A stretch of 64,000 bases of DNA. Source: Yoonia sp. R2331 (lineage in GTDB: Bacteria; Pseudomonadota; Alphaproteobacteria; Rhodobacterales; Rhodobacteraceae). Every line of letters begins with the position of its first letter. The first letter of the stretch is position 1. Made by a program: the position numbers and the translations under genes. Below the pieces are notes generated by a model. That model searched no databases. It had not been told where the DNA came from and worked only from the letters and a program-made list of their open reading frames with translations. This document shows positions 5,010 to 31,297 of this stretch, in pieces. The DNA lies in assembly GCF_041103235.1 (NCBI RefSeq), contig NZ_JBGCUN010000002.1:1-64000 (forward strand), written 5' to 3'.

Positions 5010-5029
5010 CAGCCTTAACGACTAGAACA

Positions 5030-6650: not shown

Positions 6651-6654
6651 TCAA

Positions 6655-7707: not shown

Positions 7708-7709
7708 AC

Positions 7710-8828
7710 ATGGCCAAACCATCACTGACGAACCTCCCAGCACGCAGGCTTGAACGCGGATTTCGCGGGCTGGCCGCGCGCCACATGAAACGACCGTTCT
7801 CGCGCCATGCCAAGGTGCGGTTGATGTTCTACCATGATCCGAACCGGATCAGCTATGCGCAGGTCTATCCATTCTTTCACTACGCCGATGCCTTGTTCGA
7901 ACGCTATGGCGTCGAGGTCCGGGCAGAACCTTTCGATGCCATTCTGGATGGCACTGCGAATGCGCAGAACACCGCGGATATCGTGATCTTGCAGCCGTGG
8001 TTCACCATTGCGCCGAACGACCTGACACGGGCCATTGAACAGATCACAAAGCAACATACCGGCGCTTCGGTGTCGTTCTTGGATTCCTACGCCCACAACG
8101 ACCTGCGATTGGCGCGATACCTACCCGAAGATCTGGCATTTTATATCAAAAAGTCGCTCTTCGAGACTCCATCGGACTATCTGAACACTTATCGCGGCGA
8201 TACGCAGATGATGCAGTATTACGCGGACCAGTATGGCATCACTGCAGAGGCACCCGACTTTCAGACACCGCCCACGATCATCGACAAACTCCGGCTTTCT
8301 CCGAATTTCTTGACCGCGCCGCATTTTGTCTTTGGCTTCGACCAACAGCCACCACCGATCACTGGCAGACCTCTGGATATGCAGCTTCGGCTTGGCAAAA
8401 AGGGGGGGCCAATCTACGCCGCTATGCGCAATGCCGCGCTTGGCGCGGTAGATCGGATTGCGCACCTCAAGACCTCGCCGCAGGGTGCGATGCCCTATGA
8501 TGCCTATATGGCCGAGATGCGCAGCGCCAAACTTTGCTTTAGCCCGTTCGGTTTCGGTGAATTGTGCTGGCGCGATATTGAAGCGATCCAAACAGGCGCT
8601 GTGATGATCAAACCCGACATGTCGCATCTGCAAACGCTGCCCGATCTTTATGAGCCAGGGGTGACCTATCTTCCCGTGAAGTGGGATTTCAGCGACCTCG
8701 ACGATGTCGTTGCACACGCGTTGGCGAACCCCGTGCAATGTCAGACGATTGCAAATACGGCTTGGAACCGGGCCAAGCAATATCTGGACAGCGGGCAGTT
8801 CGTCGACGACGTCAGCTATCTATTTTAG
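7710..8828 (+). CDS. Putative glycosyltransferase, exostosin/GT4-like C-terminus
   Basis: 372 residues, cytoplasmic, no membrane segment. The C-terminal part has the pattern of a nucleotide-sugar binding half: LCFSPFGFGELCWRDIEAIQTGAVMI, where GFGE and the following acidic residue resemble the E-x7-E region of GT-B enzymes and exostosin-like proteins. The N-terminal half is not recognised. The gene starts two bases after the acyltransferase stop, so manC, the acyltransferase and this gene form one operon. Its stop lies inside the convergent GT61 gene, overlapping it by nine bases. Assignment as glycosyltransferase is by the C-terminal pattern and context. Confidence 0.65.
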   Translation: MAKPSLTNLPARRLERGFRGLAARHMKRPFSRHAKVRLMFYHDPNRISYAQVYPFFHYADALFERYGVEVRAEPFDAILDGTANAQNTADIVILQPWFTIAPNDLTRAIEQITKQHTGASVSFLDSYAHNDLRLARYLPEDLAFYIKKSLFETPSDYLNTYRGDTQMMQYYADQYGITAEAPDFQTPPTIIDKLRLSPNFLTAPHFVFGFDQQPPPITGRPLDMQLRLGKKGGPIYAAMRNAALGAVDRIAHLKTSPQGAMPYDAYMAEMRSAKLCFSPFGFGELCWRDIEAIQTGAVMIKPDMSHLQTLPDLYEPGVTYLPVKWDFSDLDDVVAHALANPVQCQTIANTAWNRAKQYLDSGQFVDDVSYLF

Positions 8829-9866
8829 GATTAGGTCATAGGTGTCCTGCAATCGCGCCAGATCAACGCGATATGCCGCATCCCCATCCTCGGTGATAAT
8901 ATTGCAGGCCGCGCGATTTCCCATCGACAGGGCCACCCCGAATTGGCTGGTGTTGAAATGGTTGGACGGGTTCAACACCCAAAGCGTTCCGCCAGGTTTG
9001 ATCAGCCAATGCAGGTGGTCGGTATGGCTGCCTTCGATGGTCAATGCCACCTCTGCCCCGACGCAGCGCGCGATCATCTCTTGGATGGGTGTGGTGGCGA
9101 GGTCGATGACGTCAAACCCCATGACGTCTAGCGCCTTTTCCAACGCATCTTCGTTCGAAATTAGCCGCGCCGCACCCGTCGCACCGCGCTTCAGATAGAC
9201 CTTTTTGCCGTCACGTACCGACGCTGCGCCATGTTCGAACATCCGGCGGCGCAATTCCTTGTACCGTTCTGCTTTGTGCGGCGACTGCGCAAAATCCTGA
9301 AACAGCGCCATCCGGGCGACGTGGTACTGGCCATTGGTTAACGAAGGCAGGTCAAAAATGCGTTCATACGCGCCTGCATGCCCCCATGATGTTGCCGCAA
9401 AGTGTATGCGTTGTGTATCCTTTGCAGGCAGCAGACATTGCGCAAAACTGCGCAACCAATGCCCGAAGAAAAAGTATGATCGGTCTTCCAGACAATAGGC
9501 AGCTTCGTCCAATTCATGGATCGGATCTGTCAGCAACGCTCGGTGGTCCAAACCTTTGGCCCGATTGAACGATCCGCCCCGCGCAAATACTCCGTTGAAC
9601 AGGACAAGCACGTCCCGCAGGTTATACTGCAACACTGGTGCATGCGTGATCTCTTGCGGTTCAAAATAACGCAGGTGCATCGCAAGATTATGATTTGCAA
9701 TGGTTTTTGTGATCTTTTCACTCTCACCCGGCAAGGCGATCAATGGGGCGAAATGGCTTTGTGTTGCCGGTGCGATTTCAACTACGCTGGTGCTTGCCTC
9801 GGACAAGGAATGCGCAGGCACAAACCGACGAAAAAGTGCGTTTTTGTATGGCCTTAGCCGGATCAC
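8820..9866 (-). CDS. Glycosyltransferase family 61 protein
   Basis: The C-terminal half has the GT61 (formerly DUF563) pattern: KVYLKRG, then RLISNEDALEKALDVMGF, EVALTIEGSHTDHLHWLIKPGGTLW, and NPSNHFN. An EDRSYFFFGHWL stretch precedes it. Bacterial members act in capsule and LPS synthesis. The start is uncertain: the frame begins with TTG at 9932, three bases after the wzx stop, but a GTG at 9866 has GGAAG ahead of it and leads straight into IRLRPYKNALFRRF, so that start is preferred. It is the last gene of the minus-strand operon that begins at 15,543. Confidence 0.82.
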   Translation of the reverse strand: MIRLRPYKNALFRRFVPAHSLSEASTSVVEIAPATQSHFAPLIALPGESEKITKTIANHNLAMHLRYFEPQEITHAPVLQYNLRDVLVLFNGVFARGGSFNRAKGLDHRALLTDPIHELDEAAYCLEDRSYFFFGHWLRSFAQCLLPAKDTQRIHFAATSWGHAGAYERIFDLPSLTNGQYHVARMALFQDFAQSPHKAERYKELRRRMFEHGAASVRDGKKVYLKRGATGAARLISNEDALEKALDVMGFDVIDLATTPIQEMIARCVGAEVALTIEGSHTDHLHWLIKPGGTLWVLNPSNHFNTSQFGVALSMGNRAACNIITEDGDAAYRVDLARLQDTYDLILK

Positions 9867-9935
9867 GTCAGATTGCTTCCGGTGCGTTCGGAAGCGACCC
9901 GCACCGCCTTTTGATTGCTCGCTTCGCCGCAAAGC

Positions 9936-11294
9936 TTACGTCGACAATATGCCAATGAACATATCCTGATTGAAGGCCAATGCCGTCGCACTTAGGCCCA
10001 CAAAAACGACGAAAAAGACGAAGTCTGCAATAGGGTCCCACGCATTGAAACGATTGGCGAAATAGGCCCGCAGGGGGTACGTGACGATTGCCGTGACCCC
10101 CGGTGCAAGGACTGCACCTACAATACCCAGCATGTTGATCCCAACAATCAAGGTTCCCATCTGGATCACCGCAGACAACAACGTCACAAGCAAAAGGTTT
10201 TTTGAGTCTCGGTTTGCCAGCAGAACATTGCCGTAGTCTTCGGAAATGATCATTGGCCCGGTTGAAATGGCATAAAGAACCACAATCGCCCCTGCCTGCA
10301 CGTAACGCGGATCATACAGCGCTTCAACCAGCCACAATCCCCCAAACATCAGCGGCGCGATCATCGCAAGCAGGCACCCGATCAGCATCCGCCTGGCACG
10401 GCGCATATTCCTGCGATTCTGTTCACTTTCTGCAGGCGGTCGCATGCGATAGAGCGGGACCAAAAGCGACGAAAACAGACGCTGGCCAAGCAACAAAGGC
10501 GCGGACCCCAGAAACATCCCGATGTTATAAATCCCCAGCAGCCCCAAAGAGATGTAAGCACCCAGAACTGCTCGGTCGCCTTGTTTCACAAAGAACCCGG
10601 CGATCGTATTCAGGAACAGGTATTTGCCAAAGTGGAAGATCTCCCAAAAATCATCGGTATTCCAATGAAGACGGTTGCGCTGCCCCGGCAGAAAGACATG
10701 GGACATGATCGTGTGGGACAGCCCACCAAGAAGCGTCCCAATCGCCAGCGCCCAAATCGATTGATAGATATAGGCGAGAACAATCATACAGACCGTCCCC
10801 ACAGCCTGCGATGCAATCTCGATAATGGTCACGCGCCCATATGCCAGATGTCGGCCGGCGGTCATGCCCTTGGTCGAAAAGAACCCCCTGATGACCATAG
10901 AAAACCCGACAACCTGCAAGAGCGGCACAAGGTCCGGTTCTTCGTAAAAATGAGCCAGCGGATATGATATCGCGCAGGCCAAAAGCCATAGCCCAAAGCC
11001 ACGAATGATCTGAAGCGTCCAGGCAGTATTCAGGTAGTTCCTCTCATCGCCACGGGAACTGGTGATAACCGAGGTTGTGATCCCGATGTCGGAAAACGTG
11101 GTTAGGCCAACGATAAAGACCTGCACCAGGGCCATCAGTCCAAATGCTTCCGGGAACAGCAGGCGCGTCAGGATAAGGTTGGAGGCAAGGCGCAGCATAT
11201 TTTGCCCACCAAAGCCAAACAGCAAGCTGCCAGAGCTTCGCAAGGCTCTGGTCTTCAGACTTTCGGTGCTCGCGGCTGGATCAGGATGCGCCAT
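9936..11294 (-). CDS. wzx: Oligosaccharide flippase (Wzx type)
   Basis: A 452-residue polytopic protein of the polysaccharide transporter branch of the MOP superfamily, with about 12-14 hydrophobic segments. The N-terminal helix pattern (ALRSSGSLLFGFGGQNMLRLASNLILTRLLFPEAFGLMALV in outline) is typical of LPS/EPS flippases. It should move lipid-linked repeat units across the inner membrane to the Wzy-like polymerase encoded in the same operon. A second flippase is encoded at 36,646-37,980, so two substrates or two polymers are possible. The 63-base gap before the next upstream gene (GT2, stop at 11,358) contains no obvious terminator. Confidence 0.9.
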   Translation of the reverse strand: MAHPDPAASTESLKTRALRSSGSLLFGFGGQNMLRLASNLILTRLLFPEAFGLMALVQVFIVGLTTFSDIGITTSVITSSRGDERNYLNTAWTLQIIRGFGLWLLACAISYPLAHFYEEPDLVPLLQVVGFSMVIRGFFSTKGMTAGRHLAYGRVTIIEIASQAVGTVCMIVLAYIYQSIWALAIGTLLGGLSHTIMSHVFLPGQRNRLHWNTDDFWEIFHFGKYLFLNTIAGFFVKQGDRAVLGAYISLGLLGIYNIGMFLGSAPLLLGQRLFSSLLVPLYRMRPPAESEQNRRNMRRARRMLIGCLLAMIAPLMFGGLWLVEALYDPRYVQAGAIVVLYAISTGPMIISEDYGNVLLANRDSKNLLLVTLLSAVIQMGTLIVGINMLGIVGAVLAPGVTAIVTYPLRAYFANRFNAWDPIADFVFFVVFVGLSATALAFNQDMFIGILST

Positions 11295-11357
11295 GTTCTC
11301 GCCCGTGACATTCTCTGGCTTCCGAACCCCATAGTCCGACCTCGGTACTGAGGAAAG

Positions 11358-12320
11358 TCATTTGTACTCAATCAGTTCAGGCTGACGGCCACGAATGCGA
11401 CGCCATAGATAGTCCAGAACTCCCAAACCTTCGGGTATTTTTCCAAGGGTCAAAAAGAATGCGCGCGTCCAATCCATCCCGCGCATGTTGAGGCGGGTAA
11501 CCTGCAGCGGCCAAATCACAAGTAGCAAGAGCGCCCAGCCACCGAGAAGTACCGCTATCAGCGAGAGAATGGGCAGTACGACCCCCCAGGCGACAGCGCG
11601 CCGGGTTTCTGTCACATTGTGCTGCTCAGGCGGTGCGCCATGCAATGCCGCGCCTTCGGCATAGGCGTGCCCCGCCCGACGATTGCGGCGCCACCACTGC
11701 CCGAAACGCTTGAGTGCCGCGTCATGAATGGTCATCGGATGAGCAATCCGGTAGATTTCTCCACCTGCAGCGCGCAATCGGACACACAATTCCGGTTCTT
11801 CGCCAGCGATCAGGTTAGGATTGAACCCGCCAACCTCTCTCAATGAGGTGACCCGCATCAATGCGTCGCCACCGCAGGCGCGCGCCTTACCTATCGGAGT
11901 ATCCCATTCTGCATCGATCAGTCGATTGTATATCGTCGCGTCAGGATAGCGTTCTTTGCGGCGCCCGCAGACAACAACTGCTGCCGGATGAGCATCCAAA
12001 AAAGCGCGAGCTGCAGTGATCCAGGCAGGTTCAACTTCACAATCGCCATCCACGAATTGCACAAATGCAAAGTCACCAGCGTCCAGAAGGGCGTCCAGTC
12101 CCGCATTTCTTGCACGCGCCGCCGTGAAGGGTGTGTTGGGATCCAATGCAACCACAGTTGCGCCCAGCGCGGTGGCCTTGTCGACGCTGTCATCTGTCGA
12201 CCCACTATCGACATAAATCACCGTCTTGAGCTGCAAAAGAAGCGATTGGATACAGGTGATCAGCCTGTCACCTTCGTTGCGACCGATCACGACCGCGCCG
12301 ATATCATCAAAGGTCGTCAT
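11358..12320 (-). CDS. Glycosyltransferase family 2
   Basis: A GT-A fold enzyme: AVVIGRNEGDRL at the N-terminus, VDSGSTDDS for nucleotide binding, FVDGDCEV for the metal site, and EEPELCVRLRAAGGEIYRI further on. About residues 235-290 are hydrophobic, so it is probably anchored in the inner membrane with a cytoplasmic active site. The start is the ATG at 12,320 whose ATGA overlaps the stop of the sulfotransferase gene, showing translational coupling. Its pairing with a sulfotransferase suggests that the sugar added here, or its neighbour, becomes sulfated. Confidence 0.92.
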   Translation of the reverse strand: MTTFDDIGAVVIGRNEGDRLITCIQSLLLQLKTVIYVDSGSTDDSVDKATALGATVVALDPNTPFTAARARNAGLDALLDAGDFAFVQFVDGDCEVEPAWITAARAFLDAHPAAVVVCGRRKERYPDATIYNRLIDAEWDTPIGKARACGGDALMRVTSLREVGGFNPNLIAGEEPELCVRLRAAGGEIYRIAHPMTIHDAALKRFGQWWRRNRRAGHAYAEGAALHGAPPEQHNVTETRRAVAWGVVLPILSLIAVLLGGWALLLLVIWPLQVTRLNMRGMDWTRAFFLTLGKIPEGLGVLDYLWRRIRGRQPELIEYK

Positions 12321-13159
12321 TTGACAGCAAACGGATAGCAAAGGTCCAACGCAGGGTGCCCCGGAAACATCGTTGCAAGATGTGCGCGGTCCGCCCGATA
12401 GACATGCTCAAGTCGCCCCACATCTTCTGTGGTCAGCTTTGGGCGTTCCTGCATCGTCCGGGACTTGCGAATGCGATCACGCAGCGCCTTGGGCACAAGC
12501 ACACGGCGCAAGCCGCGCGCGACTGGGTTGTCAATAATCAGCCCTTGCAGCGGGAAGGGGCGCATGCGGTCCGCCGACACATTTTGGCTTTCCATCTCAT
12601 GCTGCCAGGCAACTTGCCCTTCCAGCCCCAGAAAAATTGCGATCTTACCCAATTCTCCGTCTGGATCAGCTTTCACCTGCTCCAAGCTGGTCAGGTGGAT
12701 ATTTTCGACACCAAACGTATCGCAATACGGTTGAATTTGCATCGCATAACGCCCGTATTCGACAATCTCGGGCAGCACAGCAAGCGCCGTTGTCGGGTCT
12801 TGATCGACCTCTCCCATGCTCCATGCATGAATAAAATGCGAGACAGCACGCTCTACCGGGTTGCGCACCATGTATATCAGCTTTGGCCGCAATTGGGCCG
12901 CGCGCATCCGCGCAATCGTATGCGGATGGGTTGGTAGTTTTGTATAGTGCGTGCTCGCTTCTCCGGTCAGTTGACCAGATGTTGCATCCGCAAAAAGCGC
13001 CGCATACCAGTCCAAGCCGTTCTGAAAGACGTCATCATCCGAAAAGAAGTTTGGTTCTTTCGGTGTGGTCATGAATACCTGCGGCTGCGCTGCAAGCTGT
13101 GCTTGCAAGGTAGATGTCCCGCACTTCATCGCACCAATGATCATAAAGTCCGGTGACAT
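12317..13159 (-). CDS. Sulfotransferase (PAPS-dependent)
   Basis: The 5'-phosphosulfate loop is visible at the N-terminus as GAMKCGTSTLQ, preceded by a hydrophobic beta strand (DFMII). The 3'-phosphate site follows in the middle as MVRNPVERAVSHF. Length (280 residues) fits bacterial heparan-sulfate-type sulfotransferases. The ATG at 13,159 is one base after the stop of the upstream GT2; the longer frame to 13,312 would overlap it heavily. Lying between two GT2 genes in a Wzx/Wzy operon, it probably sulfates a sugar of the repeat unit. It is the first of four sulfotransferase genes in the window. Confidence 0.92.
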   Translation of the reverse strand: MSPDFMIIGAMKCGTSTLQAQLAAQPQVFMTTPKEPNFFSDDDVFQNGLDWYAALFADATSGQLTGEASTHYTKLPTHPHTIARMRAAQLRPKLIYMVRNPVERAVSHFIHAWSMGEVDQDPTTALAVLPEIVEYGRYAMQIQPYCDTFGVENIHLTSLEQVKADPDGELGKIAIFLGLEGQVAWQHEMESQNVSADRMRPFPLQGLIIDNPVARGLRRVLVPKALRDRIRKSRTMQERPKLTTEDVGRLEHVYRADRAHLATMFPGHPALDLCYPFAVK

Positions 13160-13160
13160 C

Positions 13161-14120
13161 CTATTGATTCGCCTGCCGATAGGGTTTGAGCGGGGCCCGC
13201 GCACCAATCCAGATATCACGCGCTTCATTTTCAACGGCGGGATAAACCTCTTTCCCTGCCAAACGCTTGAGGTGTGCGATTGCCCGACCAAGGTGCCAGC
13301 ACAAATTGGCAAGGATCAGGCCTGAATAACCATGCGCCTGACGCAAGAAACGAGAGCGCGATGCGTAGAAGTATGTCGGCATCCGCTTGCGGGCCTTTTC
13401 CAGCGCCTTGACCGGCCCGCTTCCACCCCGAAAGTGGATTGCGGTCGCCAGATCAGTCACGACTATTCGCCACCCCGCCCGCTGCGCACGCAGGCAATAC
13501 TCTGCATCCTCGAAGTAAAGAAAATAGTCGTCATCCATCAAACCGATCTGATTGATCATGTCCCGGTTCAGCAAGATGCAGGCAAAACTGGCCCAGTCGA
13601 TCTTATCTTCTGGCGCGCCTTTGGGCAGCGCCACCAATGAGCGTCGTAGCAACTTTGTTATGGGGCCAGTTGCCGCTGCCCTTTCAAGCTCGCTCAGCGG
13701 TGAAGCAAAGCGAAATCGGCTGATCTGCTCAGTCCCGTCATCACCTACCAACCTTGGCGCAATCATACCGGCATTAGGCGCAGAATTCGCCCTATCCATG
13801 ATAGCCTTCAGGAAACCCTTCTTAAGCAAAGCATCGGAATTCAGCACAAGCACATAGGCACCATCGCTATTTGTGATGCCCAGATTGTGGCCCCCTGAAA
13901 AGCCCGTATTCTCATCCGATCTTACCAATTTTACGGGCATGTTCGGATGGGCCGCGATCCATTCGGCAATCTGTTCAGCCGATCCATCGCCCGACGCGTT
14001 GTCCACCACCACAATATCCACGGCGAGGTCGCCAATGTCGTCTAGAACTGACTGCACGCACGACAAGGTCATGTCGCCGGTCTTGTAGTTGATAATCGAG
14101 ACAGAGATTTCACTGGGCAT
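13161..14120 (-). CDS. Glycosyltransferase family 2 (rhamnosyltransferase-like)
   Basis: A GT-A domain with VSIINYKTGD, VVDNASGDGS, NTGFSGGHNLGI and VLNSDALL; the last is the metal-binding region. A later FLYFEDAEYCLRAQRAGW is the acidic acceptor-side motif seen in WbbL/RfbF-type rhamnosyltransferases. dTDP-rhamnose genes occur at the right end of the window, so a rhamnosyl donor is plausible but not shown. The ATG at 14,120 starts seven bases after the stop of the Wzy-like gene. A run of basic residues and a weak hydrophobic helix near residue 275 suggest membrane contact. Confidence 0.9.
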   Translation of the reverse strand: MPSEISVSIINYKTGDMTLSCVQSVLDDIGDLAVDIVVVDNASGDGSAEQIAEWIAAHPNMPVKLVRSDENTGFSGGHNLGITNSDGAYVLVLNSDALLKKGFLKAIMDRANSAPNAGMIAPRLVGDDGTEQISRFRFASPLSELERAAATGPITKLLRRSLVALPKGAPEDKIDWASFACILLNRDMINQIGLMDDDYFLYFEDAEYCLRAQRAGWRIVVTDLATAIHFRGGSGPVKALEKARKRMPTYFYASRSRFLRQAHGYSGLILANLCWHLGRAIAHLKRLAGKEVYPAVENEARDIWIGARAPLKPYRQANQ

Positions 14121-14127
14121 GGAAAAT

Positions 14128-15543
14128 TCAGATCGCCTGACGTCGTTTGATCCGTTTGGTTTGGCGGGTATAGGGGCTAACTGCAACCGGGACTAGCTCT
14201 TCGGGGTCGTGTTGATCAGAACCATCGTTACCTTTCCAGTCCATGCGGCCCCAAAGCGCACCGGCGATTAACCACGTCAATGGCGTCATCGTCGCATTGG
14301 GGAGAAGATCAATCAGATTGGCACACAATACGATCGTCAGCGTCGTTGTCTCTGGTCCGACATTGTAGCGTTTTCGGCGAACATAGAAGAAAACAAGCGG
14401 TGCGATCATCAGTCCGAATTCGGACAGGTATCTTGTCCACCCACCAACACCAAAAATGATCACCCAATAGCCGTCGGTCACACTGATGTCGGTCCCCAAT
14501 TCGTCGTAGACCCGCGCGCGTCCCCAGCCACCCCATCCAAACAACGGGCGTTGGTTGGCCTTTTGCAAAAGGATATCTTCGTTCTCCAACCGGAATTGAA
14601 GTGATCCAGCACGATCAGCATTGATTGAAGCCGCAATTGAGACCGCCGTATCACCAGTCACCCATCCGCGTTCACGCAAGATGGGATAGGTCAACACAAT
14701 GGTACCGATGATCAGCGCCAACAGCATCTGGGTCCGTTGCGGTAGAAAAAACACGATAGGAACCAGCACGAACGCAATCGCCGCAGCCCCGAGAGAACTT
14801 GACAAAAGCAGTGTCAAAAAGATCCAGCCTGCAACCAGCCGTAGCTTTGTCCTTTGCTTCGGGAAGGCAGCAGACGCACCGACCGCTGCGATTGCCGCCA
14901 TTGCAAAGAATATCGCAAGCCAAAGACCATGTTCAAGAAACACCAAAGGCCGGAAATTGCCGCCCCTCACATGCTGAATCCAGTCGTGTGGAAAGAACCC
15001 ATAGACCATCCGATTAAGCTGTGGAGACATGCGAATTTCGTAGAGAGCTAGCAGGGAGTAACCCAAACCAGCCAGTGCAAGCACCATAAGCAATGTGCGA
15101 TGCTGCGAAGGACTGGCCAGAAAACGGTACGCCAAGATGAACGGAATCAACTGGATCATGACCCCCAGAACTGAAGAAAATCCGTCATAGACCCTCAACC
15201 CTGGCAAATAACCAACACGGTCATCATTGGTAAGGACTGTCAGAAACGCACCCGCGACAAGGCCCACCAACATGACCCAGGCGGCAAGACTTTTCGGGAT
15301 CCAACGCTGCAATGCATCAATGTTGGGTCGTTTCAGCGCAAAGAACGCGAGGAACAACGCCGTCAGCGCTGGGATCGAATCCTTGTCCAGCACCGGCAAT
15401 ACAGGAAGGTCCAATCCCGCAATGGAAGGCAGGATCAGATATCCGGCAATGATCGCGACAGAGATTGCGATCGGCATCCGGTACTTTTGGAACAGCACCA
15501 GCACCACTACAGGCCAACTGTAAAGAACCAACGACGCGAACAT
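14128..15543 (-). CDS. wzy: O-antigen ligase/polymerase-like membrane protein (Wzy)
   Basis: 471 residues with about a dozen hydrophobic segments and one long periplasmic loop (about residues 290-370) that holds REN/GWG-type residues: RLENEDILLQKANQRPLFGWGGWGRAR in outline. This layout matches the WaaL/Wzy family, which joins lipid-linked repeats in the periplasm. It is the first gene of the minus-strand operon and starts 213 bases from the divergent spike cassette. Within the window it is the only polymerase candidate. Ligase function cannot be excluded from sequence, but no lipid A-core genes are nearby, so polymerisation is favoured. Confidence 0.85.
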   Translation of the reverse strand: MFASLVLYSWPVVVLVLFQKYRMPIAISVAIIAGYLILPSIAGLDLPVLPVLDKDSIPALTALFLAFFALKRPNIDALQRWIPKSLAAWVMLVGLVAGAFLTVLTNDDRVGYLPGLRVYDGFSSVLGVMIQLIPFILAYRFLASPSQHRTLLMVLALAGLGYSLLALYEIRMSPQLNRMVYGFFPHDWIQHVRGGNFRPLVFLEHGLWLAIFFAMAAIAAVGASAAFPKQRTKLRLVAGWIFLTLLLSSSLGAAAIAFVLVPIVFFLPQRTQMLLALIIGTIVLTYPILRERGWVTGDTAVSIAASINADRAGSLQFRLENEDILLQKANQRPLFGWGGWGRARVYDELGTDISVTDGYWVIIFGVGGWTRYLSEFGLMIAPLVFFYVRRKRYNVGPETTTLTIVLCANLIDLLPNATMTPLTWLIAGALWGRMDWKGNDGSDQHDPEELVPVAVSPYTRQTKRIKRRQAI

Positions 15544-15756
15544 GTACTTTCGGCCCCTTTCCTAGCTGTTGAACCTGATGGCTTTGTAGCGGATTTCGGT
15601 GCGAGCTATCTCAACTTTTTGGCATTGCGAGGGCGGAAATCTGGTCCGTCACGGTGGCATCTGGGCAAATTAACCTTTGCCAGCGACCTTTGCCCTAACG
15701 ATTGCAGGTCATCCTCGTCGTCTCTCCACAACAATTTTATCGAGCAGGATCACAAC

Positions 15757-16020
15757 ATGCCACAGGACAAATTTGCTGACCATTCATCTGGCCTTGAAAG
15801 CCCTGCAACCTCTGTCATCGAGGTCACACCAAGCGATACGGCGGACCTCGCGACCGTAAGCCGGGCCATTAACGTCGCCGCCAATGGCAGCGTGCGCCTA
15901 ACGACGATTGATGGTGCAGTCGCCACGGTCAACATTGCCGCAGGGATCGCCTTTCCAATTCGTGCCGCCCGCATTTGGGCCACTGGCACGACTGCAACCG
16001 GCATTGTGGTCATGTCCTAA
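15757..16020 (+). CDS. GTA/phage-type spike base protein (Rcc01079-like)
   Basis: 87 residues without signal peptide. The layout matches, from memory, the spike base protein family named after R. capsulatus Rcc01079: a short polar start, GLESPA, then VTPSDTADL, a beta-rich middle, and a near-invariant end RIWATGTTATGIV. In R. capsulatus that protein (GhsA) with Rcc01080 (GhsB) forms the GTA head spikes that attach to recipient capsule. The ATG at 15,757 follows an AGGAT element; the frame is open further upstream, but the family starts here. Its stop overlaps the next gene's start (TAATG), so the cassette is translationally coupled. No capsid, terminase or tail gene is in the window. Confidence 0.8.
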   Translation: MPQDKFADHSSGLESPATSVIEVTPSDTADLATVSRAINVAANGSVRLTTIDGAVATVNIAAGIAFPIRAARIWATGTTATGIVVMS

Positions 16021-18131
16021 TGAGCGGCATCGGATTGGGGCTTGGCCTTGGCCCAGCGCAGGGCATGTTTTCGGGCGTGTTTGATGTGCCGGGCGGCGTT
16101 CTTTCAGTTGCAACAACATCGAGCGGGACGTTAGAAATCACGGCTGAGGCGGGCGCTCTCACGATCACTGTGCTGCCGCCTTCGCCCTTTGCCGGAACTT
16201 ACGAGACCACAACCGATGCATTGGCGCTGGGTCCGGTGAACCTTGTGCCGCCGGTCATTTCCGGTGCTGCAAACGTTGGCGAAGTTCTGACCGCGACGCT
16301 CGGCTTTTGGATATTTGATGCAAGTCTCGCACCACCGGTATCGACGATCCAATGGCGCAGCAATGGAACCGCCATCCCGGGTGAGACTGCGACCACGCTG
16401 ACCCTGCAAAACGCGGGCGTCGATGTATCGTTGACCGAAACGCTCGATCAGCCAGGCCTTACAGCCGTCAATGCAGACAGCAACGTCGTTGTTTTGCCGT
16501 TCCCATCGCAGTTGGTCACGATCCCAACGGGCACAGTTGGTGTCGATCAAACCAATTTCCCCGTGCGTTTCGACCTGGCCGATCTGTCACCCGTCATGTG
16601 GCAAGCTCTGCGCGCCGACGGGGGTAACCTACGCGCGACAAACGCAGCGGACGATCAGTCTTATCCACTGGACATCATCTGGATCGACCCGATCCTGCAG
16701 CGCGGGACAGCCTTTGTAAGACAAGACATTCTTGCAACAGCAGATGCCGATTTCACATTGCGCGCCCGCAGCTTGTCCACACCGCTGGCCCCAACAGACG
16801 ACCCGATCGGACGCAATGCGGTTTGGGCGGACTATTTGTCAGTCATTGCTTTCCCGGAACGGATCGACCGCACCGGCCAAAATGCCGTGTTCGAAACGGG
16901 CGGTTTCCCGGATAGTTATGTGCTTGAAAGGGTCAGTCCAGACATCCAGATGCATCAAGGCGTAACATGGGATGGCACGCATTGGTTTGTCGTTGATACC
17001 AACCAGATCAAAAAGTTTGATGTCGATTGGAACCTTGTTCAAACCGAAGACGACCCAATTGGACTTAGCGGCCTTTCGGCGGTCAACCACCTTGGTGACC
17101 CCTGCATTCACAACGGCGAATTGCTGATCCCGCTTGAGGTCTGGCCTTCCGGACCATTCACCAATCAACACATTGCCGTCTTTGATCCAGCAGACCTGAG
17201 CTTTGTGCGCAGTCATGACATTTCAGCAGCCGGTCGGGAGGCGTCAGCAATTGCCATCAACCCGGCTGATGGAAACCTTTATTGCACGGACTACACTGAT
17301 GGTTCGAACATTCCATACTTCACGCCGACTGGCACATATCTCGGTAACTTGGCGCTGTCGCAGACCATCAATCAGCTTCAAGGGATCGTTTTCCACGACG
17401 GGAAAATGTACCTCAGCTCTGATGCAGGCGATCACTTGTACGAGGCTTTGCCGGACGGCACCGTCACACCGACCCCAGTCTTCACCTCAATGCTGGGTGG
17501 CTCATTTGAAGGGATCACGTCCGATGGCAGCGATCTTTTCGTCTTGATCGACAGCGATCCATCGTCGATCTACCGCCTCTGCCCATCTGACAAATGTGAT
17601 CTACTACAGTTCGAAACCAATGCTTTGCGCGTGCAAGACCTGCCGTCGCAGGACGTTTGGACGGCCAGTGTGAGCGTGATGCCGCTGGACTTACCGCATA
17701 ATGGCGCGGTGATCTCTTTGGTGCGACAAGGCGGCGAGGCGAACCGCGCGACGGCAGCGATCCGCGAATCCTCAAACCCAGACAGCTACAATGCTTGGTC
17801 AAACGCGAACGGCTGGATGGTACCTGGGGCAACGCGTCGCCCCGAAATCGCCGAAACTGTTCGCTTTTCGTATGGGTACAACGGTGCGACCGAACGAAAG
17901 TTGCTACTCGATGGCACCCCCTATGCTGTCGATCCCGGTGTGACACCGCGTCCCGGCGGCGGCCAGATGATCTGGTTCACTGGCGCTGAGGACACGAACC
18001 CAACCGAACACGTTAAGGCAGTCATGTCTTTTGCATTTCTCTATGATGGCTATGCTTCGGATGCACGGCTGGCTGCGGAGTTTGCAACGCTGCATGACAC
18101 GAGCAACTTCTACAACACCAACTCTGGATAG
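16020..18131 (+). CDS. Large multidomain spike/fibre-like protein: Ig-like, propeller and lectin-like parts
   Basis: 703 residues, starting in the TAATG overlap with the spike base gene. It begins with MSGIGLGLGLG, a start often seen in GTA and phage structural proteins, and has no signal peptide. Residues about 80-155 form a bacterial Ig-like repeat (PPVISGAANVGEVLTAT, then IQWRSNG). Residues about 165-260 resemble DUF2341-type beta domains (NFPVRFDLADL and IWIDPIL). About 300-520 is a propeller-like region with repeated Asp-Gly turns (WDGTHWFVVD, ITSDGSDLFVLID). The last 150 residues look like a concanavalin/LamG domain. All parts are sugar- or protein-binding folds, in keeping with a receptor-binding fibre. 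The exact role is inference. Confidence 0.7.
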   Translation: MSGIGLGLGLGPAQGMFSGVFDVPGGVLSVATTSSGTLEITAEAGALTITVLPPSPFAGTYETTTDALALGPVNLVPPVISGAANVGEVLTATLGFWIFDASLAPPVSTIQWRSNGTAIPGETATTLTLQNAGVDVSLTETLDQPGLTAVNADSNVVVLPFPSQLVTIPTGTVGVDQTNFPVRFDLADLSPVMWQALRADGGNLRATNAADDQSYPLDIIWIDPILQRGTAFVRQDILATADADFTLRARSLSTPLAPTDDPIGRNAVWADYLSVIAFPERIDRTGQNAVFETGGFPDSYVLERVSPDIQMHQGVTWDGTHWFVVDTNQIKKFDVDWNLVQTEDDPIGLSGLSAVNHLGDPCIHNGELLIPLEVWPSGPFTNQHIAVFDPADLSFVRSHDISAAGREASAIAINPADGNLYCTDYTDGSNIPYFTPTGTYLGNLALSQTINQLQGIVFHDGKMYLSSDAGDHLYEALPDGTVTPTPVFTSMLGGSFEGITSDGSDLFVLIDSDPSSIYRLCPSDKCDLLQFETNALRVQDLPSQDVWTASVSVMPLDLPHNGAVISLVRQGGEANRATAAIRESSNPDSYNAWSNANGWMVPGATRRPEIAETVRFSYGYNGATERKLLLDGTPYAVDPGVTPRPGGGQMIWFTGAEDTNPTEHVKAVMSFAFLYDGYASDARLAAEFATLHDTSNFYNTNSG

Positions 18132-18142
18132 AGGCAGCGCGC

Positions 18143-20425
18143 ATGAGCAGGAAAATTGGCCTAACAGGCATACCACAGACAAGTTCCTTTGCCATCCAAG
18201 TGGCACAGCAAGGCCGAACCGCAGCGGGGTCGACCGACAACTGGGGCGGCGGGGACAATCCATGGGGCGATCCCTCTCCCGGTGTGTCCGCGTCAATCCG
18301 GCTTGTGAAACGGTCTAACCTGCAGGTCGCGCCGGAAGGTATGTTCTTTGAGGTCGATCTTGTCGGCTTCGACACGCCGGGGCCTGTCGACCCTGATGCC
18401 TATGACCCGCAGCATCATGATGTCTACTATTTCTGGAATTTCGGCGACCCCGGCAGCACCTTCACGGCCACTGAAAATGTTATGGACCATCAGCGCGACG
18501 CCAATGTGGCCTATGGCCCGACGGCAGCTCATGTCTACAGCACCCATGGCGACTATCAGGTCAGCGTACTTGTGGTCGAACCATCAAGCGGCAAGACCAC
18601 GACGGCCACGTTCGAAATTGGCGGCCCTGACGAAGACACACCGACGATCCAGAACCCTGACGATGTGTTCGCCAATGGTCTTACGATCATCGTCGATCAG
18701 ACCGGGGCAGGATTACCCCAATATCCGAATGCCCACGTGCGCACGACGATCGAGGCCGCCTTTAGCTTCACCGACAATAAGGCCGGACCGTATCGCGTCA
18801 TGCTGATGGATGATCAGGAATGGGACACCGCCGGTGTCGCGATGACGTCGCTCAGCCCGTCGTTGCACGTCGTCGGGTCTGGCACTGGATCGCTCCGCCC
18901 CAAGCTCAACCACGTTGGCGGATCCAGGATGATCTACTTCGTCGGCTGGGACACAAGCAATGTCAAAGACGCTGTTATCAGCGGAATCAGCTTCGAAGGC
19001 GGTTGGGACAGTACGACCGAAACCGGAACCGCAAACAACAGTTGCTTTAGCCAGTCGACGGATCAGGGCAGCTACCTCTTGGTCACCGAAACTGATGTCA
19101 TGAACTTTGGCGCCCATGCCTATGTCGCGATCAGCTTTACGAACGAACTTGGCGTGCGCATCTTCCACAACCTCGTCAGTGAAGGCAGCCGGTCATACCA
19201 TTTCTATGAAGAAATCAATGCACCTTGCGCCTATTTGGGGGTGCGGGCGATGTCCAACATCAATGCACTTTCTGGCGGACCGCGTCTTAATGGGCCGAGC
19301 TACCACAACGATGCTGCGATCCTGCGCTTTCAAAGTGCCAAAAACGTTGTAATCGACGGTTGCGACATCTTTGTCCGTACCGGCTGGTTCGAAAACATGT
19401 TCGGCATTCGCACACAACAGGCCGCTGTTCGCTTCGATCAACGGGGCAATCGCGGAACCCGGTTCAACGTGCAGCGTTGTAGCATCGAAGGCAGCCTTTC
19501 GATTGCTCGCATGAACAATAATGTTCAAGTGAACGTGCAAAACAACCTGATCGAACGGTGCGTGCTGGCAGGTACCGCCTTCGATCGCAGAGTGATCGTT
19601 CTGACCTATGGTGGCGCAACAATTCGCAATAACCTGATGTCCGTTCCAAACGCGCCACGGATCGATTTCTACGGCCTCTTCAATCCCAGCGGCTTTGTCC
19701 AAACAGAGCTTTATGAAGACCCAGGCGCGCAAACGGGAAACGTCGCTGAATGCGCCGCAGGGCCAATCAAGGTCTACAACAATACCTGTGTGTCCCTCAT
19801 GGACGCGGCACATCAGATAAATCCGCCTGTCATCGTCTTTGAGGCGACAAACTTGGGCACATTCACAAATATCGTTGAGAGCAACAACATCCTTCACGCA
19901 CCGGCAACCGGAACGCCAAGCATCGCGGCGGCGCCGCTTGTTGCCACGCCGATTTGGACGCCACGGCACAACGGCTACCGGTCCAAATTTGAACGGATCG
20001 AAGTGATCATCCCAAGCGACGTGACAGACGGCGCCAGCATCACGCTGGGGTACCCCACGGGTCGCGGACAATCGGATTATGCCGTCGTCCCTGATCTTCC
20101 ACATCGCATCGGGTTGAACAGTCACAAGAACGCCAACCCCAAACATGATGTGCCGGTCACCTTTGGTTCAAGTTCGCTGACGGTCGTTAATGACACCGGA
20201 ACAACCTGGCCTGCCGGTGAGGCGGTGATCGTGCTTTATTGCCCTGATAGCCCTGCCACCCACGGCAACCATGCCACCAATAACGTGCCGGTCGCGATCT
20301 ACCGCCCGGACATCGGGTCTCCGGCATTGGGAAGCGCTGACGACAGCTTGCGCACCGTCGGAGATTTCTTTGGCAACTTCCGCCCCGTCCACCAATCCAT
20401 GGGTGCCTTCGAGGCTGATCTGTAA
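18143..20425 (+). CDS. PKD-domain and right-handed beta-helix protein, tailspike-like
   Basis: 760 residues beginning MSRKIGLTGIPQ, again without a signal peptide. Residues about 55-155 form a PKD domain (YYFWNFGDPGSTF, then AAHVYSTHGDYQVSVLV). Residues about 165-600 show the spaced N- and V-rich pattern of a right-handed parallel beta-helix (KNVVIDGCDI, NVQVNVQNNLIERC, ATIRNNLMS, IKVYNNTCVS). The end carries an ALGSADDSLRTVGDFFGNFRP stretch typical of helix-family enzymes. Tailspikes that cut or bind capsule, and secreted polysaccharide lyases or epimerases, share this fold. No catalytic residues could be assigned. It starts 11 bases after the preceding gene, completing a three-gene cassette. 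Confidence 0.75.
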   Translation: MSRKIGLTGIPQTSSFAIQVAQQGRTAAGSTDNWGGGDNPWGDPSPGVSASIRLVKRSNLQVAPEGMFFEVDLVGFDTPGPVDPDAYDPQHHDVYYFWNFGDPGSTFTATENVMDHQRDANVAYGPTAAHVYSTHGDYQVSVLVVEPSSGKTTTATFEIGGPDEDTPTIQNPDDVFANGLTIIVDQTGAGLPQYPNAHVRTTIEAAFSFTDNKAGPYRVMLMDDQEWDTAGVAMTSLSPSLHVVGSGTGSLRPKLNHVGGSRMIYFVGWDTSNVKDAVISGISFEGGWDSTTETGTANNSCFSQSTDQGSYLLVTETDVMNFGAHAYVAISFTNELGVRIFHNLVSEGSRSYHFYEEINAPCAYLGVRAMSNINALSGGPRLNGPSYHNDAAILRFQSAKNVVIDGCDIFVRTGWFENMFGIRTQQAAVRFDQRGNRGTRFNVQRCSIEGSLSIARMNNNVQVNVQNNLIERCVLAGTAFDRRVIVLTYGGATIRNNLMSVPNAPRIDFYGLFNPSGFVQTELYEDPGAQTGNVAECAAGPIKVYNNTCVSLMDAAHQINPPVIVFEATNLGTFTNIVESNNILHAPATGTPSIAAAPLVATPIWTPRHNGYRSKFERIEVIIPSDVTDGASITLGYPTGRGQSDYAVVPDLPHRIGLNSHKNANPKHDVPVTFGSSSLTVVNDTGTTWPAGEAVIVLYCPDSPATHGNHATNNVPVAIYRPDIGSPALGSADDSLRTVGDFFGNFRPVHQSMGAFEADL

Positions 20426-23719: not shown

Positions 23720-24685
23720 TCAGCCTGCCCGCGCTTTTGCGGCAAAAATCGGTGCGCGCTCTTTCTCGATCTGGGCGATGGCCTTGGCCTTGCCCATACG
23801 CAAGGCGCGCCTTTGATAACTGCGAATAAAGGCCCGCAACTGGGGATCATCATGTTGTCGGTTGCCACGCAACATCGCGCCAAAATAACCCTGCAGCATC
23901 GCCAGCCCACCCAACACAACCGGCGGGTGCCGCATCTTGTTGATCGCGGTGGCGATGAAATAGAGCGGGTCGGATCCCATGTAATGCTGCCCAAACCCGT
24001 GTCTGCGCCGCCCGGTGTAGATGCTTTGCTGGCTCGACCCCATCGGGCGCAAATGTTCGAACCGCAGACCTTCTTCGTCCCAGCTTTTCGGCGTCCAGCC
24101 CTTCATCCGCGCGGTATGGCAATCAATCCCGTCCCACATCACCTCGTGGACAAAGCCTCCGATGTCCTCAAAACAGGCGGTTGAGAAGAACTTTGTCATC
24201 CCAACCGACATCTCATCACCAGCCGTTTCCGCAACCAACGCGCCTCGGCTATTGCGCGCATAGGGCTTGCCCGAACAGGTCCCGATCCGGGGATTGTCCT
24301 GCATCCGTGCGATCAATGTCGCGAAGTAGCCAGGCGGCAAATCCAGGTCGAGGTCCAGTTTACACAAATAGGCATAGTCACTCAGCGTGACCTGATCCAA
24401 ACCGAAATAGAACGCCTCAATCACTCCCGGCCCCACGGCACGATGCCCGCGGTCGGGTTTGGGTGCGACCTTGATCCAGTCGTGCTGCGCTGCGTATTCG
24501 GCCAAAATCTCTGGTGTTTCATCGGTCGACCCATCGTCGACAATCAACCACAGCGACGGCTGCACCGTCTGCGCCACCATACTATCCAGCGTGCGGCGCA
24601 TATACGCCGCCTCATTCCGGCAGGGTGAAATCACGACGTAACTTGCAGGATCAGGCATCGGTGCGGTCTTCTTTTCTTCAGTCAT
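23720..24685 (-). CDS. Glycosyltransferase family 2
   Basis: GT-A domain with YVVISPCRNEAAYM, LIVDDGSTDET, and the metal site in LCKLDLDLDLPPGYF. Residues about 150-230 include GDEMSVGMTKFF and EDIGGFVHEVMWDGIDCH, a pattern seen in EPS biogenesis enzymes that act on undecaprenyl-linked sugars. A single hydrophobic segment near residue 255 (VVLGGLAMLQGYFGAML) may bind the membrane. It follows the preceding minus-strand gene by six bases, so the two GT2-like genes form an operon. Donor and acceptor cannot be told. Confidence 0.88.
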   Translation of the reverse strand: MTEEKKTAPMPDPASYVVISPCRNEAAYMRRTLDSMVAQTVQPSLWLIVDDGSTDETPEILAEYAAQHDWIKVAPKPDRGHRAVGPGVIEAFYFGLDQVTLSDYAYLCKLDLDLDLPPGYFATLIARMQDNPRIGTCSGKPYARNSRGALVAETAGDEMSVGMTKFFSTACFEDIGGFVHEVMWDGIDCHTARMKGWTPKSWDEEGLRFEHLRPMGSSQQSIYTGRRRHGFGQHYMGSDPLYFIATAINKMRHPPVVLGGLAMLQGYFGAMLRGNRQHDDPQLRAFIRSYQRRALRMGKAKAIAQIEKERAPIFAAKARAG

Positions 24686-24691
24686 CTGGGC

Positions 24692-25780
24692 CTACCAGAA
24701 ACCGGCACTGGGCCGGAACATCATCCGCAAGCTCGCCAGCACATAAACAACAAAGTCAAAGCCGAAACCAAGCAAAAGCAGCGCAAACCTGCGCAGGCTC
24801 TTTTGCGACCCAGCAAAAAACGCTTTCACCCGCCAGGTCAGAAAGTGCAGCGGCACGTAGCCATAGGGCCACTTTGGCAGCTCGGCCTTGATCACATCGG
24901 GCAGCCAGTTTTCATCCACTGCGGCCCGCATCAACAACGCATGGGCTGCGTCCAGATCACCTGCCTCGCGCCGTATCTTGGCAAACAGAACCGCATTGAT
25001 CGCACTGCCAATGACAATCCGAACCTGATGCCGGATCAGCTCTGGGATCGTGCGGATTGACTCATAGACGTGGTAAATCGCCTCATCCCCGTCGATCCGG
25101 TCAAAATTTTCTGGCGCGCTCAAAAGATCAGTCAGCATCATCGCACGCATGAACCCGTCTTCGACCGGCAAGCCAGCGGGCAATCCAATCTGACGCGCCA
25201 TCGCACTGCGCATCACGAACAACTGCCCGCAGATGGCTGTTTTGAAATCTGCCAAGCCGCCCCCGCTGGCCCCGATGATCCGCCCAACAAGGCCGGTCGG
25301 AAGTTGATCGTGCACAACGTCCTTGATCGGGCAACTGGTGAAGGCTTGCAGCTTTGGGCGGTCTTGCAGCGCTGCAATCATGCGCCGGATGGTATCGGCC
25401 TGCGGCAGAACAATATCCGCGTCCATGAAACCCAGGATCGTCGCATCCCGGCGCGCGATATCATGAATGAAACGATGCACAGTCCGGGACTTGCCGCCTA
25501 ATTCTAAATCAAGCACGGCAATCCGGTTGCCGACCGTTGCGGGCAGTTCTGCAATCGCCCCATTTGCACGACCCACAGTCGCATCGGTGCATCCGTTGGC
25601 CAGAATGTGAACGCGCAGATCCAGTATGGGATCATCGAACAGGTCCTGCCGTGCAAGTTCGCCCAATAGTGCCGCGATCCCGTCTTGCTCATTATGAGCA
25701 AAGACGCCGATGTCACATGTGGTCTTTGTGGCTGAATTCACCAAAATCGCTTTCAACGGGCCGCCTGAAATCTCGGACAT
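24692..25780 (-). CDS. Glycosyltransferase family 2-like protein
   Basis: 362 residues from the ATG at 25,780. The GT-A pattern is present: IGVFAHNEQDGI, HILANGCTD, LELGGKSRTVHRF and the metal-binding LGFMDADIVLP. A hydrophobic C-terminal segment (LRRFALLLLGFGFDFVVYVLA in outline) should anchor it in the inner membrane. The frame is open upstream to 25,813, but that would add only 11 residues without a better ribosome site. It is the first gene of a two-gene operon and diverges from the exosortase gene across 257 bases that carry a palindrome. Confidence 0.82.
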   Translation of the reverse strand: MSEISGGPLKAILVNSATKTTCDIGVFAHNEQDGIAALLGELARQDLFDDPILDLRVHILANGCTDATVGRANGAIAELPATVGNRIAVLDLELGGKSRTVHRFIHDIARRDATILGFMDADIVLPQADTIRRMIAALQDRPKLQAFTSCPIKDVVHDQLPTGLVGRIIGASGGGLADFKTAICGQLFVMRSAMARQIGLPAGLPVEDGFMRAMMLTDLLSAPENFDRIDGDEAIYHVYESIRTIPELIRHQVRIVIGSAINAVLFAKIRREAGDLDAAHALLMRAAVDENWLPDVIKAELPKWPYGYVPLHFLTWRVKAFFAGSQKSLRRFALLLLGFGFDFVVYVLASLRMMFRPSAGFW

Positions 25781-25834
25781 TCTTGACCCAGAAACCGGCC
25801 ATTGGGGAAGCACAAAGCGCTTCTATTCCATTGT

Positions 25835-25853
25835 TGTGCAAATTTGTTGCACA
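25835..25853. promoter_or_regulatory. Palindromic operator candidate between GT2 operon and exosortase
   Basis: A perfect inverted repeat TGTGCAA-ATTTG-TTGCACA sits in the divergent region 25,781-26,037, 55 bases upstream of the GT2-like start. Its centre holds CAAATTTG. The same octamer occurs in the divergent region of the other exosortase-type EPS genes (58,352-58,359). A second, looser dyad (TTGCCAATTTGG) lies at 25,873-25,884. Regulator unknown. Confidence 0.45.
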
Positions 25854-26037
25854 CAAGTGGACAACCCACTGTTGCCAATTTGGTGAGTGATAACAGCTTT
25901 GTGCCTATCGCCGGGCTTTGGAATTCGCGTGTCTCGTGCTATCAGGCGTTTTGATCTTATTTTTGAAGGTCAATCGCCATGATGTTGCCGTTTCCCGCCG
26001 TTAAGGCCCAGTGTAGTTGACCGAATAGAGTGTATTG

Positions 26038-27642
26038 ATGTCCAGCAGCAGCGAAATTTCCCAAAGATCTACAGCACTTGACGCATTCGCGCACAAGGGA
26101 ACCTTTTGGTTGATCGTTGTTTGCGCAGCCGCAGGCGTGTTCTTTTGGGATGGTATCGGCGCGCTGCTGGAAGCGTGGCAATTGCCCGAATACAGCCACG
26201 GCCCACTGATTCCCGTGCTGTCGGGTCTGTTGTTCCTGCGCCAGCTCAAGGAATTTCCCGAACGTCCCGGCCCGATCCGCGACCGCTGGATCGGCGTCAC
26301 GGTCATTCTTGCCGCCATTGCGATGGGATCGCTGGGCAAACTGTCGAATATCAACGATATCGTCGCTTATGCGCTGATCCTGTGGATCGGTGGCCTACTT
26401 CTGGTCAGCTTTGGCTGGAAGACAGGCAAACATTTCTGGCCCCCGGTCCTACACCTTGTCTACATGCTGCCGCTGCCGGGCGTGATCTACTACAAGACCA
26501 CTACATGGCTGCAGTTCATTTCCTCCGAACTGGGTGTCTGGTTCCTGAAATTGATGAGCGTACCAGTCTTCTTGGACGGTAATATCATCGACCTTGGCGT
26601 CACCAAACTACACGTGGCAGAGGCATGTTCGGGCCTGCGCTACCTGTTCCCGATCCTCAGCTTTTCCTACATCTTTGCGGTGCTCTACCGCGGTCAGATG
26701 TGGCACAAGGCCGTTTTGCTGATCTCTGCCGTTCCGATCACCATCCTGATGAACTCTGTCCGGATCGCCGTGGCGGGCTATATCGTCAACAACTGGGGTC
26801 TGGCCTGGGTCGAGGGCTTTTCGCACTTCTTCGAAGGTTGGGTGATCTTTGTTGCCTGTATCCTGATCCTGTTCCTGCTGGCGCGCATTCTTCTGTACTT
26901 CAATCCGGTCAAGATGAGCCTGATCGAGGCGCTTGACCTCGACACTGACGGTCTTGGCACACAGGCCATGCGGCTGCGCCACGTCATGCCCTCTGCGGCG
27001 ATGATTACATCTGCCGGCGCAATCCTCGCGGCTGTCGCCGTCTTTGCAGCACTGCCCGAACGTGGTGCTATCCGCGTCGATCGGGAATCCTTCTCAACTT
27101 TCCCCCGCACATTGGGTAGCTGGGAACAAACTGGCCCACGCCGTGTTCTGGATGCCAGCGTTGCCACTGTGCTGGGCGCGGACGACTACCATCAGGTTCA
27201 ATTCACGTCACCTAATGCGGCTGCATCGGTCAACTTCTTCTCCGCCTGGTATTATGACCAAAGCAGCGGCGGCGTGCACTCGCCAGAGATTTGCCTCCCC
27301 GGTGGCGGTTGGGAAATTGCATGGCTGGAACGCACGGATGTGACCGAACAGCTTGGCAGTGCAGAGCCCTACAACATCAACCGCGCGATCATCCAAAAGG
27401 GTGAGACACGGATGATGGTCTATTATTGGTTCGAACAAAAAGGGCGCCACATCGCCTGGGACTTCTCTGCCAAACTGTGGCTGATGATCGACGGGGTTCG
27501 CACAGGCCGTACCGATGGCGCACTGGTGCGCCTGACAACGCCGATCCTGCCGAACGAAACAGACGCAGATGCCGAGGCCCGCTTGAATGACGTGTTAGTA
27601 CAGGTCCAAGCCCCACTAGGGCGTTTCATTCCAGCCCAATAA
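26038..27642 (+). CDS. xrtD: Exosortase (XrtD type) fused to EpsI domain
   Basis: 534 residues. The first 290 form an eight-segment membrane exosortase with the three hallmark residues: Cys197 in AEACSGLR, Arg242 in ILMNSVRIAV and His263 in GFSHFFEGW. Exosortases cut the C-terminal sorting signal of exported proteins and so place them on the surface with EPS. Residues about 330-534 are an EpsI (DUF3485) domain (FPRTLGSWEQTG, VHSPEICLPGGGW, YYWFEQKGRHIAWD). This fusion is the layout of the VPLPA-CTERM-specific XrtD of Rhodobacteraceae. The ATG at 26,038 is preferred to the TTG before it. No protein with a VPLPA-type C-terminus was seen in this window, so its substrates are elsewhere. Confidence 0.93.
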   Translation: MSSSSEISQRSTALDAFAHKGTFWLIVVCAAAGVFFWDGIGALLEAWQLPEYSHGPLIPVLSGLLFLRQLKEFPERPGPIRDRWIGVTVILAAIAMGSLGKLSNINDIVAYALILWIGGLLLVSFGWKTGKHFWPPVLHLVYMLPLPGVIYYKTTTWLQFISSELGVWFLKLMSVPVFLDGNIIDLGVTKLHVAEACSGLRYLFPILSFSYIFAVLYRGQMWHKAVLLISAVPITILMNSVRIAVAGYIVNNWGLAWVEGFSHFFEGWVIFVACILILFLLARILLYFNPVKMSLIEALDLDTDGLGTQAMRLRHVMPSAAMITSAGAILAAVAVFAALPERGAIRVDRESFSTFPRTLGSWEQTGPRRVLDASVATVLGADDYHQVQFTSPNAAASVNFFSAWYYDQSSGGVHSPEICLPGGGWEIAWLERTDVTEQLGSAEPYNINRAIIQKGETRMMVYYWFEQKGRHIAWDFSAKLWLMIDGVRTGRTDGALVRLTTPILPNETDADAEARLNDVLVQVQAPLGRFIPAQ

Positions 27643-27652
27643 GGCAGTCATA

Positions 27653-28114: not shown

Positions 28115-28120
28115 GTGTGA

Positions 28121-29035: not shown

Positions 29036-29036
29036 G

Positions 29037-29855: not shown

Positions 29856-29920
29856 TACTGCTTTACCCGCCTGTAAGCATGAAATTGGGGGTCACAACAA
29901 CCCATCGCCTCTGCAGGTCG

Positions 29921-31273: not shown

Positions 31274-31297
31274 GCGTCGTCTCCTTCGGGTGTGGTC

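Follow-up and report, generated by a model that had tools for sequence, protein, structure and literature searches.

A probable GhsA/GhsB-type head-spike cassette inside an EPS locus of Yoonia sp. R2331

The DNA analysed here (the window: 64,000 nt of Yoonia sp. R2331, GCF_041103235.1, NZ_JBGCUN010000002.1, positions 1-64,000) carries three plus-strand genes at 15757-20425 that encode a head-spike base protein, a fibre coupled to it and a PKD/beta-helix protein, and all three stand inside a complete EPS locus. We consider it likely that they are the head spikes of the RcGTA-like GTA of this host, linked to the EPS genes as a matched pair. A first-pass annotation, made from the DNA letters only, had read them as a GTA (or phage-derived) spike module. 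That reading is supported by the base profile, by the docking peptide of the fibre, by a GTA cluster elsewhere in the genome and by the EPS link.

The cassette and its spike proteins

The cassette begins after a 213-bp divergent gap and is flanked by EPS genes on either side. Its placement between a Wzy operon and GT4/AsnB genes, as first annotated, is confirmed by the features of the region, which are as follows.

1939..9932, unstranded: outer left EPS genes, namely UDP-glucose dehydrogenase, sulfatase, ManC, acyltransferase and GT61
9936..15543, minus strand: left EPS operon of Wzx, GT2, sulfotransferase, GT2 and Wzy-like genes (PF13440, PF00535, PF00685, PF00535 and a weak PF04932)
14128-15543, minus strand: Wzy-like gene, the immediate left neighbour of the cassette (weak PF04932)
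15544..15756, unstranded: 213-bp gap between wzy and the spike cassette, which are divergent (sequence)
15757..16020, plus strand: head-spike base protein of GhsA/Rcc01079 type, 87 aa (NF048002.1, PHROG 12296 and 6tb9 matches)
16020..18131, plus strand: head-spike fibre in the GhsB position, 703 aa, coupled to the base (sequence, syntenic homologues)
16029..16049, plus strand: docking peptide IGLGLGL at the fibre N-terminus (pattern as in the RcGTA fibre)
16227..16514, plus strand: Ig-like linker domain within the fibre, approximately residues 70-165 (tblastn, AlphaFold)
18143..20425, plus strand: protein with PKD domain and right-handed beta-helix (ORF3), 760 aa (PF00801, model, Foldseek, prophage homologue)
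20490-21767, plus strand: GT4 (EpsE-like), right of the cassette (profile match)
21767-23719, plus strand: asparagine synthase-like AsnB, right of GT4 (profile match)
23720..33966, unstranded: outer right EPS genes, namely two GT2, exosortase (EpsH/EpsI type), hexapeptide transferase, DUF535, WecG, Wza-type export and YjbH

The cassette does not differ in GC content (0.56-0.58) from its surroundings, and no further phage gene was found around it in the window. We refer to the window's own genome as G000 and to five other genomes of its genus as G001-G005, where G001 is of the same species and G003 of a further one. Base, fibre and ORF3 are collinear in G001 and, at 67-78% identity, in G003. 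The NF048002 base profile has no match in any of 14 control genomes, which, together with this collinearity in relatives, means that the cassette is not there by chance.

The 87-residue protein is a spike base of the Rcc01079 type, as first proposed. It matches the spike_base RCAP_Rcc01079 family (NF048002.1) over profile positions 1-84 of 85 with an E-value of 9.4e-31 and 106 bits (cut-off 28); PHROG 12296 is matched with 92 bits, and the solved RcGTA head-spike base 6tb9 (Rcc01079) with 60 bits and an E-value of 1.6e-15 in phmmer. The RcGTA base is a pentameric jellyroll, attached to the capsid vertices via its N-terminus (PMC7296036). The family also occurs in 31 records of the phage collection, the nearest phage scoring 68 bits, and because the window base is about equally near to this phage and to RcGTA, sequence alone does not separate a GTA from a phage protein. 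The bases of the Rhodobacter phages RcapNL, RcapMu and RcWaterboi are homologous (42-46% identity) and are encoded in phage genomes rather than beside host EPS genes.

The base and the large protein behind it were said to be translationally coupled, and the fibre ATG does overlap the base TAA by one base (TAATG at 16018-16022). At other loci, too, the base is as a rule followed by a coupled fibre-like ORF. The window fibre starts MSGIGLGLGLG, in which SGIGLGLGLG has the same alternating pattern as IALGLGLGL, the residues 2-10 with which the RcGTA fibre plugs its base pentamer (PMC7296036); the peptide is conserved in the fibres of G003 and G004. Near their N-terminus, 49 of the 80 coupled ORFs found behind the base elsewhere show three or more alternating hydrophobic residues spaced by small ones, as against 6 of 348 control ORFs, and the strict alternating motif of at least four is present in 29/80 and 0/348 respectively. 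Typical signal peptides are absent, by eye, from all three N-termini of the cassette, as noted before. The first-pass annotation expected trimeric spikes; since RcGTA has one fibre per base pentamer (PMC7296036), trimers are not to be expected.

Behind the docking peptide the fibres diverge. The window fibre has no Pfam match, and its AlphaFold model is poor (mean pLDDT 49, with four close sequences), except that the Ig-like part (about residues 60-165) folds with fair confidence (pLDDT 75-87). The original "Ig/propeller/lectin" label is a reading from sequence. This Ig-like part is also more widespread than the remainder, with tblastn matches within residues 1-160 at about a dozen loci, and in the phage collection ORF2 finds matches in the Ig-like stretch only. 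The C-terminal parts of 65 fibres sort into 26 similarity groups, including 16 singletons. Some fibres have sialate-O-acetylesterase-like, fn3 or laminin-G domains. In three of them (L070, L074 and L060) the sialate-O-acetylesterase-like (SASA) domain follows the docking peptide, and such spikes may deacetylate their receptor polymer.

The arrangement resembles GhsA/GhsB (Rcc01079/Rcc01080) of RcGTA in its homologous base, its coupled fibre bearing a docking peptide of this type, and its position outside the main GTA cluster next to surface-polysaccharide genes (PMC7296036, PMC10218006). It differs in that the fibre has 703 aa rather than the 325 aa of GhsB and an apparently different receptor part, and in having a third, PKD/beta-helix gene and a Wzx/Wzy EPS system with exosortase. 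A profile of the window fibre gave no match at the R. capsulatus locus in our set (L106), where the fibre is broken off at 189 aa.

The third protein and the resident prophage

The description of the third gene as a PKD/beta-helix protein was correct: ORF3 has a PKD domain at residues 91-158 (PF00801, above cut-off), and its AlphaFold model is a right-handed beta-helix (mean pLDDT 76, pTM 0.83). The best Foldseek matches are a K1 capsule lyase and the Sf6 and Fri1 tailspikes (E-values 1e-6 to 1e-5), and matches to tailspikes as a whole extend to 1e-4. ORF3 shares a fold class with these proteins (the Sf6, Fri1 gp49 and Klebsiella K1 lyase tailspikes) at about 10% identity and TM-scores of 0.2-0.3, so that only the fold class is supported. 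Searched as a profile against PDB sequences, ORF3 matched only a ColH PKD domain, and it has no match in the phage collection. Homologues are rare, being found by profile search in 9 of 298 genera, and 7 of these 9 also have a spike base.

The host has a related module in a prophage of its own. A prophage-like element at about 1.298-1.332 Mb of contig C1 (L011, G000:C1; L213:9689-13113) carries its own divergent base together with terminase, portal and head genes, and near its end lies a docking-peptide fibre starting MQLGISMGL, followed directly by a homologue of ORF3 that is 60% identical over 745 residues and clearly more so in the central part. A virion role of ORF3 is supported by this use of a related module in the host's own prophage, and the prophage module and ORF3 would share their target polymer. 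The same-species genome G001 has no second base match. A further phage-like copy occurs on plasmid p5 of Tritonibacter mobilis (L246), where phage tail genes are accompanied by an unannotated spike base and then a hypothetical protein.

ORF3 is probably a polysaccharide-binding or polysaccharide-degrading component of the spike. Polysaccharide lyases and epimerases are commonly right-handed beta-helix folds, and ORF3 might instead belong to the EPS locus as a lyase or epimerase that processes EPS, with no part in the spike. We regard this as unlikely, while the best placed of the alternatives considered here. PL6 lyases and AlgG are indeed among the Foldseek matches, and the homologues in two uncultured Jannaschia begin with a possible signal peptide. 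However, the window ORF3 lacks such a start, phage tailspikes and capsule depolymerases head the list of its fold matches, the 60% homologue directly follows a prophage fibre gene, and most genera with ORF3 also have the base.

The proposed role of ORF3 as a spike component has a parallel in the RcGTA tailspike TspA (Rcc02623), a polysaccharide-active beta-helix protein serving a GTA (PMC13420450). Compared by description, TspA is attached to the baseplate, is encoded beside lysS and has an N-terminal beta-sandwich carbohydrate-binding module, whereas ORF3 has a PKD domain and sits in a head-spike cassette.

We note a second cassette in G004 (G004:C21, L015 / L051), made up of a base, a fibre of only 161 aa and a beta-helix protein that shares 39% identity with ORF3. 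The fibre is hardly more than the N-terminus and the Ig-like part, and its shortness beside a beta-helix protein suggests an adaptor with a separate receptor-binding protein.

The GTA and the EPS context across genera and within the genus

The genome contains an RcGTA-like structural cluster with terminase, portal, protease, capsid and tail genes on C1, away from the cassette (L010, G000:C1, about 1182.8-1196.5 kb), in which GTA_TIM scores 484 bits. Over 298 genera of the family, 97 have both the base and GTA_TIM, 5 the base only, 165 GTA_TIM only and 31 neither (Fisher p 0.005), where the GTA_TIM counts are upper bounds for GTAs because several genomes have more than one match, some perhaps from phages with GTA-like baseplates. 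The base-type spike is thus not needed by every GTA: 165 of the 262 GTA_TIM-positive genera lack a recognisable base match. Head spikes appear to be an accessory part of Rhodobacteraceae GTAs, or else unrelated bases are used in these genera.

The EPS context of the spike base is a family-wide rule. For this analysis, HMMs were built from the EPS proteins of the window and used in six-frame searches of 20-kb neighbourhoods. One or more core EPS genes stand no further than about 10 kb from the base at 29 of 39 one-per-genus loci, compared to 3 of 41 control windows from the same genome set and the window's genus (p 4e-10), and at 52 of the 80 loci from a GTDB scan. For at least two core EPS genes the corresponding figures are 25/39 genera, 44/80 GTDB loci and 1/41 controls. 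The 39 loci come from different other genera and were picked for long contigs, and the GTDB sample is biased to window-like bases. The R. capsulatus locus L106, which ends within 0.6 kb of the base gene end, provides no positive control for the EPS context. Plasmids show the same association by annotation: on p1 of Jannaschia sp. CCS1 the base has GT, Wzy-type and WecG genes to its left and a beta-helix protein to its right, and on pRSMBB of Rhodovulum sp. MB263 it lies amid EPS genes; on both, the genes to either side encode glycosyltransferase, polymerase or export functions.

Related genomes were compared for exchange of spike and wzy/GT genes as a block, as the first-pass annotation had envisaged, and in two of them the genes have been replaced together. 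Across the six genomes of the genus, all of which have a base, the GTA capsid is 88-100% identical to that of G000. The window-type fibre is found in G001 (99%), G003 (67%) and G004 (65%), and the window-type Wzy in the same three (100%, 70% and 70%). In G002, Wzy is only 43-46% identical, the base 34%, and the window-type fibre is absent, there being two quite different large fibre-like proteins; the flank is collinear with the window, with exosortase at 73%, Wza at 91%, YjbH at 75% and genes beyond at up to 95%. G005 has neither the window-type Wzy nor the fibre, and its base (36%) is accompanied by a 1201-aa fibre-like protein, in a rearranged island surrounded by flanking genes of up to 91% identity. 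The genus therefore has three spike types, each with its own set of Wzy and glycosyltransferases between conserved locus flanks. This suggests that the spike type changes along with polymerase and glycosyltransferases while the GTA itself stays unchanged, as seen in two independent changes within one genus of six genomes. A second genus (g256) gives a like picture, a hint only in view of its noisy gene calls. The relatives thus carry both the EPS link and a GTA cluster, which, with the base-profile match, agrees with the first-pass annotation.

EPS loci could simply be insertion hotspots in which spike genes are carried along without any matched specificity. Accessory genes do gather in EPS islands, for 10 of the 39 base loci no EPS gene turned up within 10 kb, and the evidence from within the genus amounts to two replacements; nevertheless, we think such passive carriage distinctly improbable. 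The EPS enrichment is about 37-fold in odds and extends over chromosomes and plasmids in dozens of genera, and in R. capsulatus the adjacent genes make the polymer that is bound (PMC10218006). In addition, loci alike in fibre are also alike in Wzy, with a partial correlation of 0.27 given base similarity (16 loci, permutation p 0.01), from which phylogeny is not fully removed. Least probable of all is that the cassette is a relic of a prophage in the EPS locus, of which the host GTA makes no use: the base family does occur in phage records and in the host's own prophage, which has a similar fibre and beta-helix pair, but no other phage genes surround the cassette, its EPS context recurs in most genera, and its three frames are uninterrupted and keep their order in a second species (67-78% identity), and are therefore probably under selection.

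Proposed function, significance and promoter regions

We therefore return to the reading of the cassette as head spikes of the host GTA. Five copies of the base would occupy capsid vertices, and one fibre would be plugged into each base pentamer through the N-terminal I-G-L-G-L-G-L peptide. The large C-terminal part of the fibre would hold the particle on the recipient polysaccharide, and ORF3 would bind or trim this polymer too, as part of the spike or as a factor released along with the particle. From the gene content, we infer that the spike of the window species is matched to the polymer made next to it. The cassette would lie inside the EPS locus because spike and EPS are useful only as a matched pair: a lineage that exchanges its EPS locus would gain the fitting spike too, and donor particle and recipient coat would stay matched.

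It is already published for R. capsulatus that spike genes lie beside capsule genes (PMC10218006). In the papers searched, in which subscription literature is thinly covered, we found neither an EPS-spike link outside R. capsulatus nor a joint replacement, and likewise neither the third gene nor the prophage copy, and the novelty of all these is provisional. Ectopic GTA loci can evolve faster (PMC13420450). A genetic link between spike and polymer would help to explain why the genes for head spikes are located apart from the vertically inherited GTA cluster.

More tentatively, and with slightly less than even confidence, we propose that the spike cassette and EPS locus of Rhodobacteraceae make up a single exchangeable "lock and key" island, present on chromosomes as well as EPS plasmids, that would confine transfer to cells of the same EPS type, with the homologous beta-helix modules of phages aimed at the same polymer. 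If this is true, gain of an island changes both the polymer displayed by a cell and the polymer sought by its own DNA-transfer particles, and the island is a recognition system for sharing DNA among its carriers. One proposed answer to why GTAs persist despite the death of the producer cells is that their DNA goes preferentially to relatives. A spike-polymer link would give kin-biased delivery of this kind a physical basis, and makes it testable whether the EPS type of a recipient predicts transfer and whether exchange of the island redirects it. It would also be a genomic way to predict the polymer recognised by a spike.

The genes ghsA/B are controlled by CtrA and GafA (PMC9638019). The gap between wzy and base contains TTAACC, similar to a CtrA half-site, at 15670-15675, which as a single site is weak evidence; upstream of base genes TTAAC occurs in 28 of 113 cases, compared to 11.2 +- 3.3 in shuffled sequences. 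In a motif comparison of upstream regions, no motif was clearly common to the window spike promoter and the host's own GTA promoter. Two candidates were rejected. A GTGTTGC match upstream of the own GTA cluster sits in an apparent terminator hairpin, and the palindrome CGTACG, as a motif shared with the GTA, is absent from the window promoter and rare among GTA promoter regions (3 of 21). Upstream of base genes themselves, CGTACG occurs in 18/113 cases against 3.3 in shuffles, and could be where an activator of head-spike genes binds. It is found for example at L063, L168 and L097, 70-170 bp before the base start, and often reads CGTACGGT.
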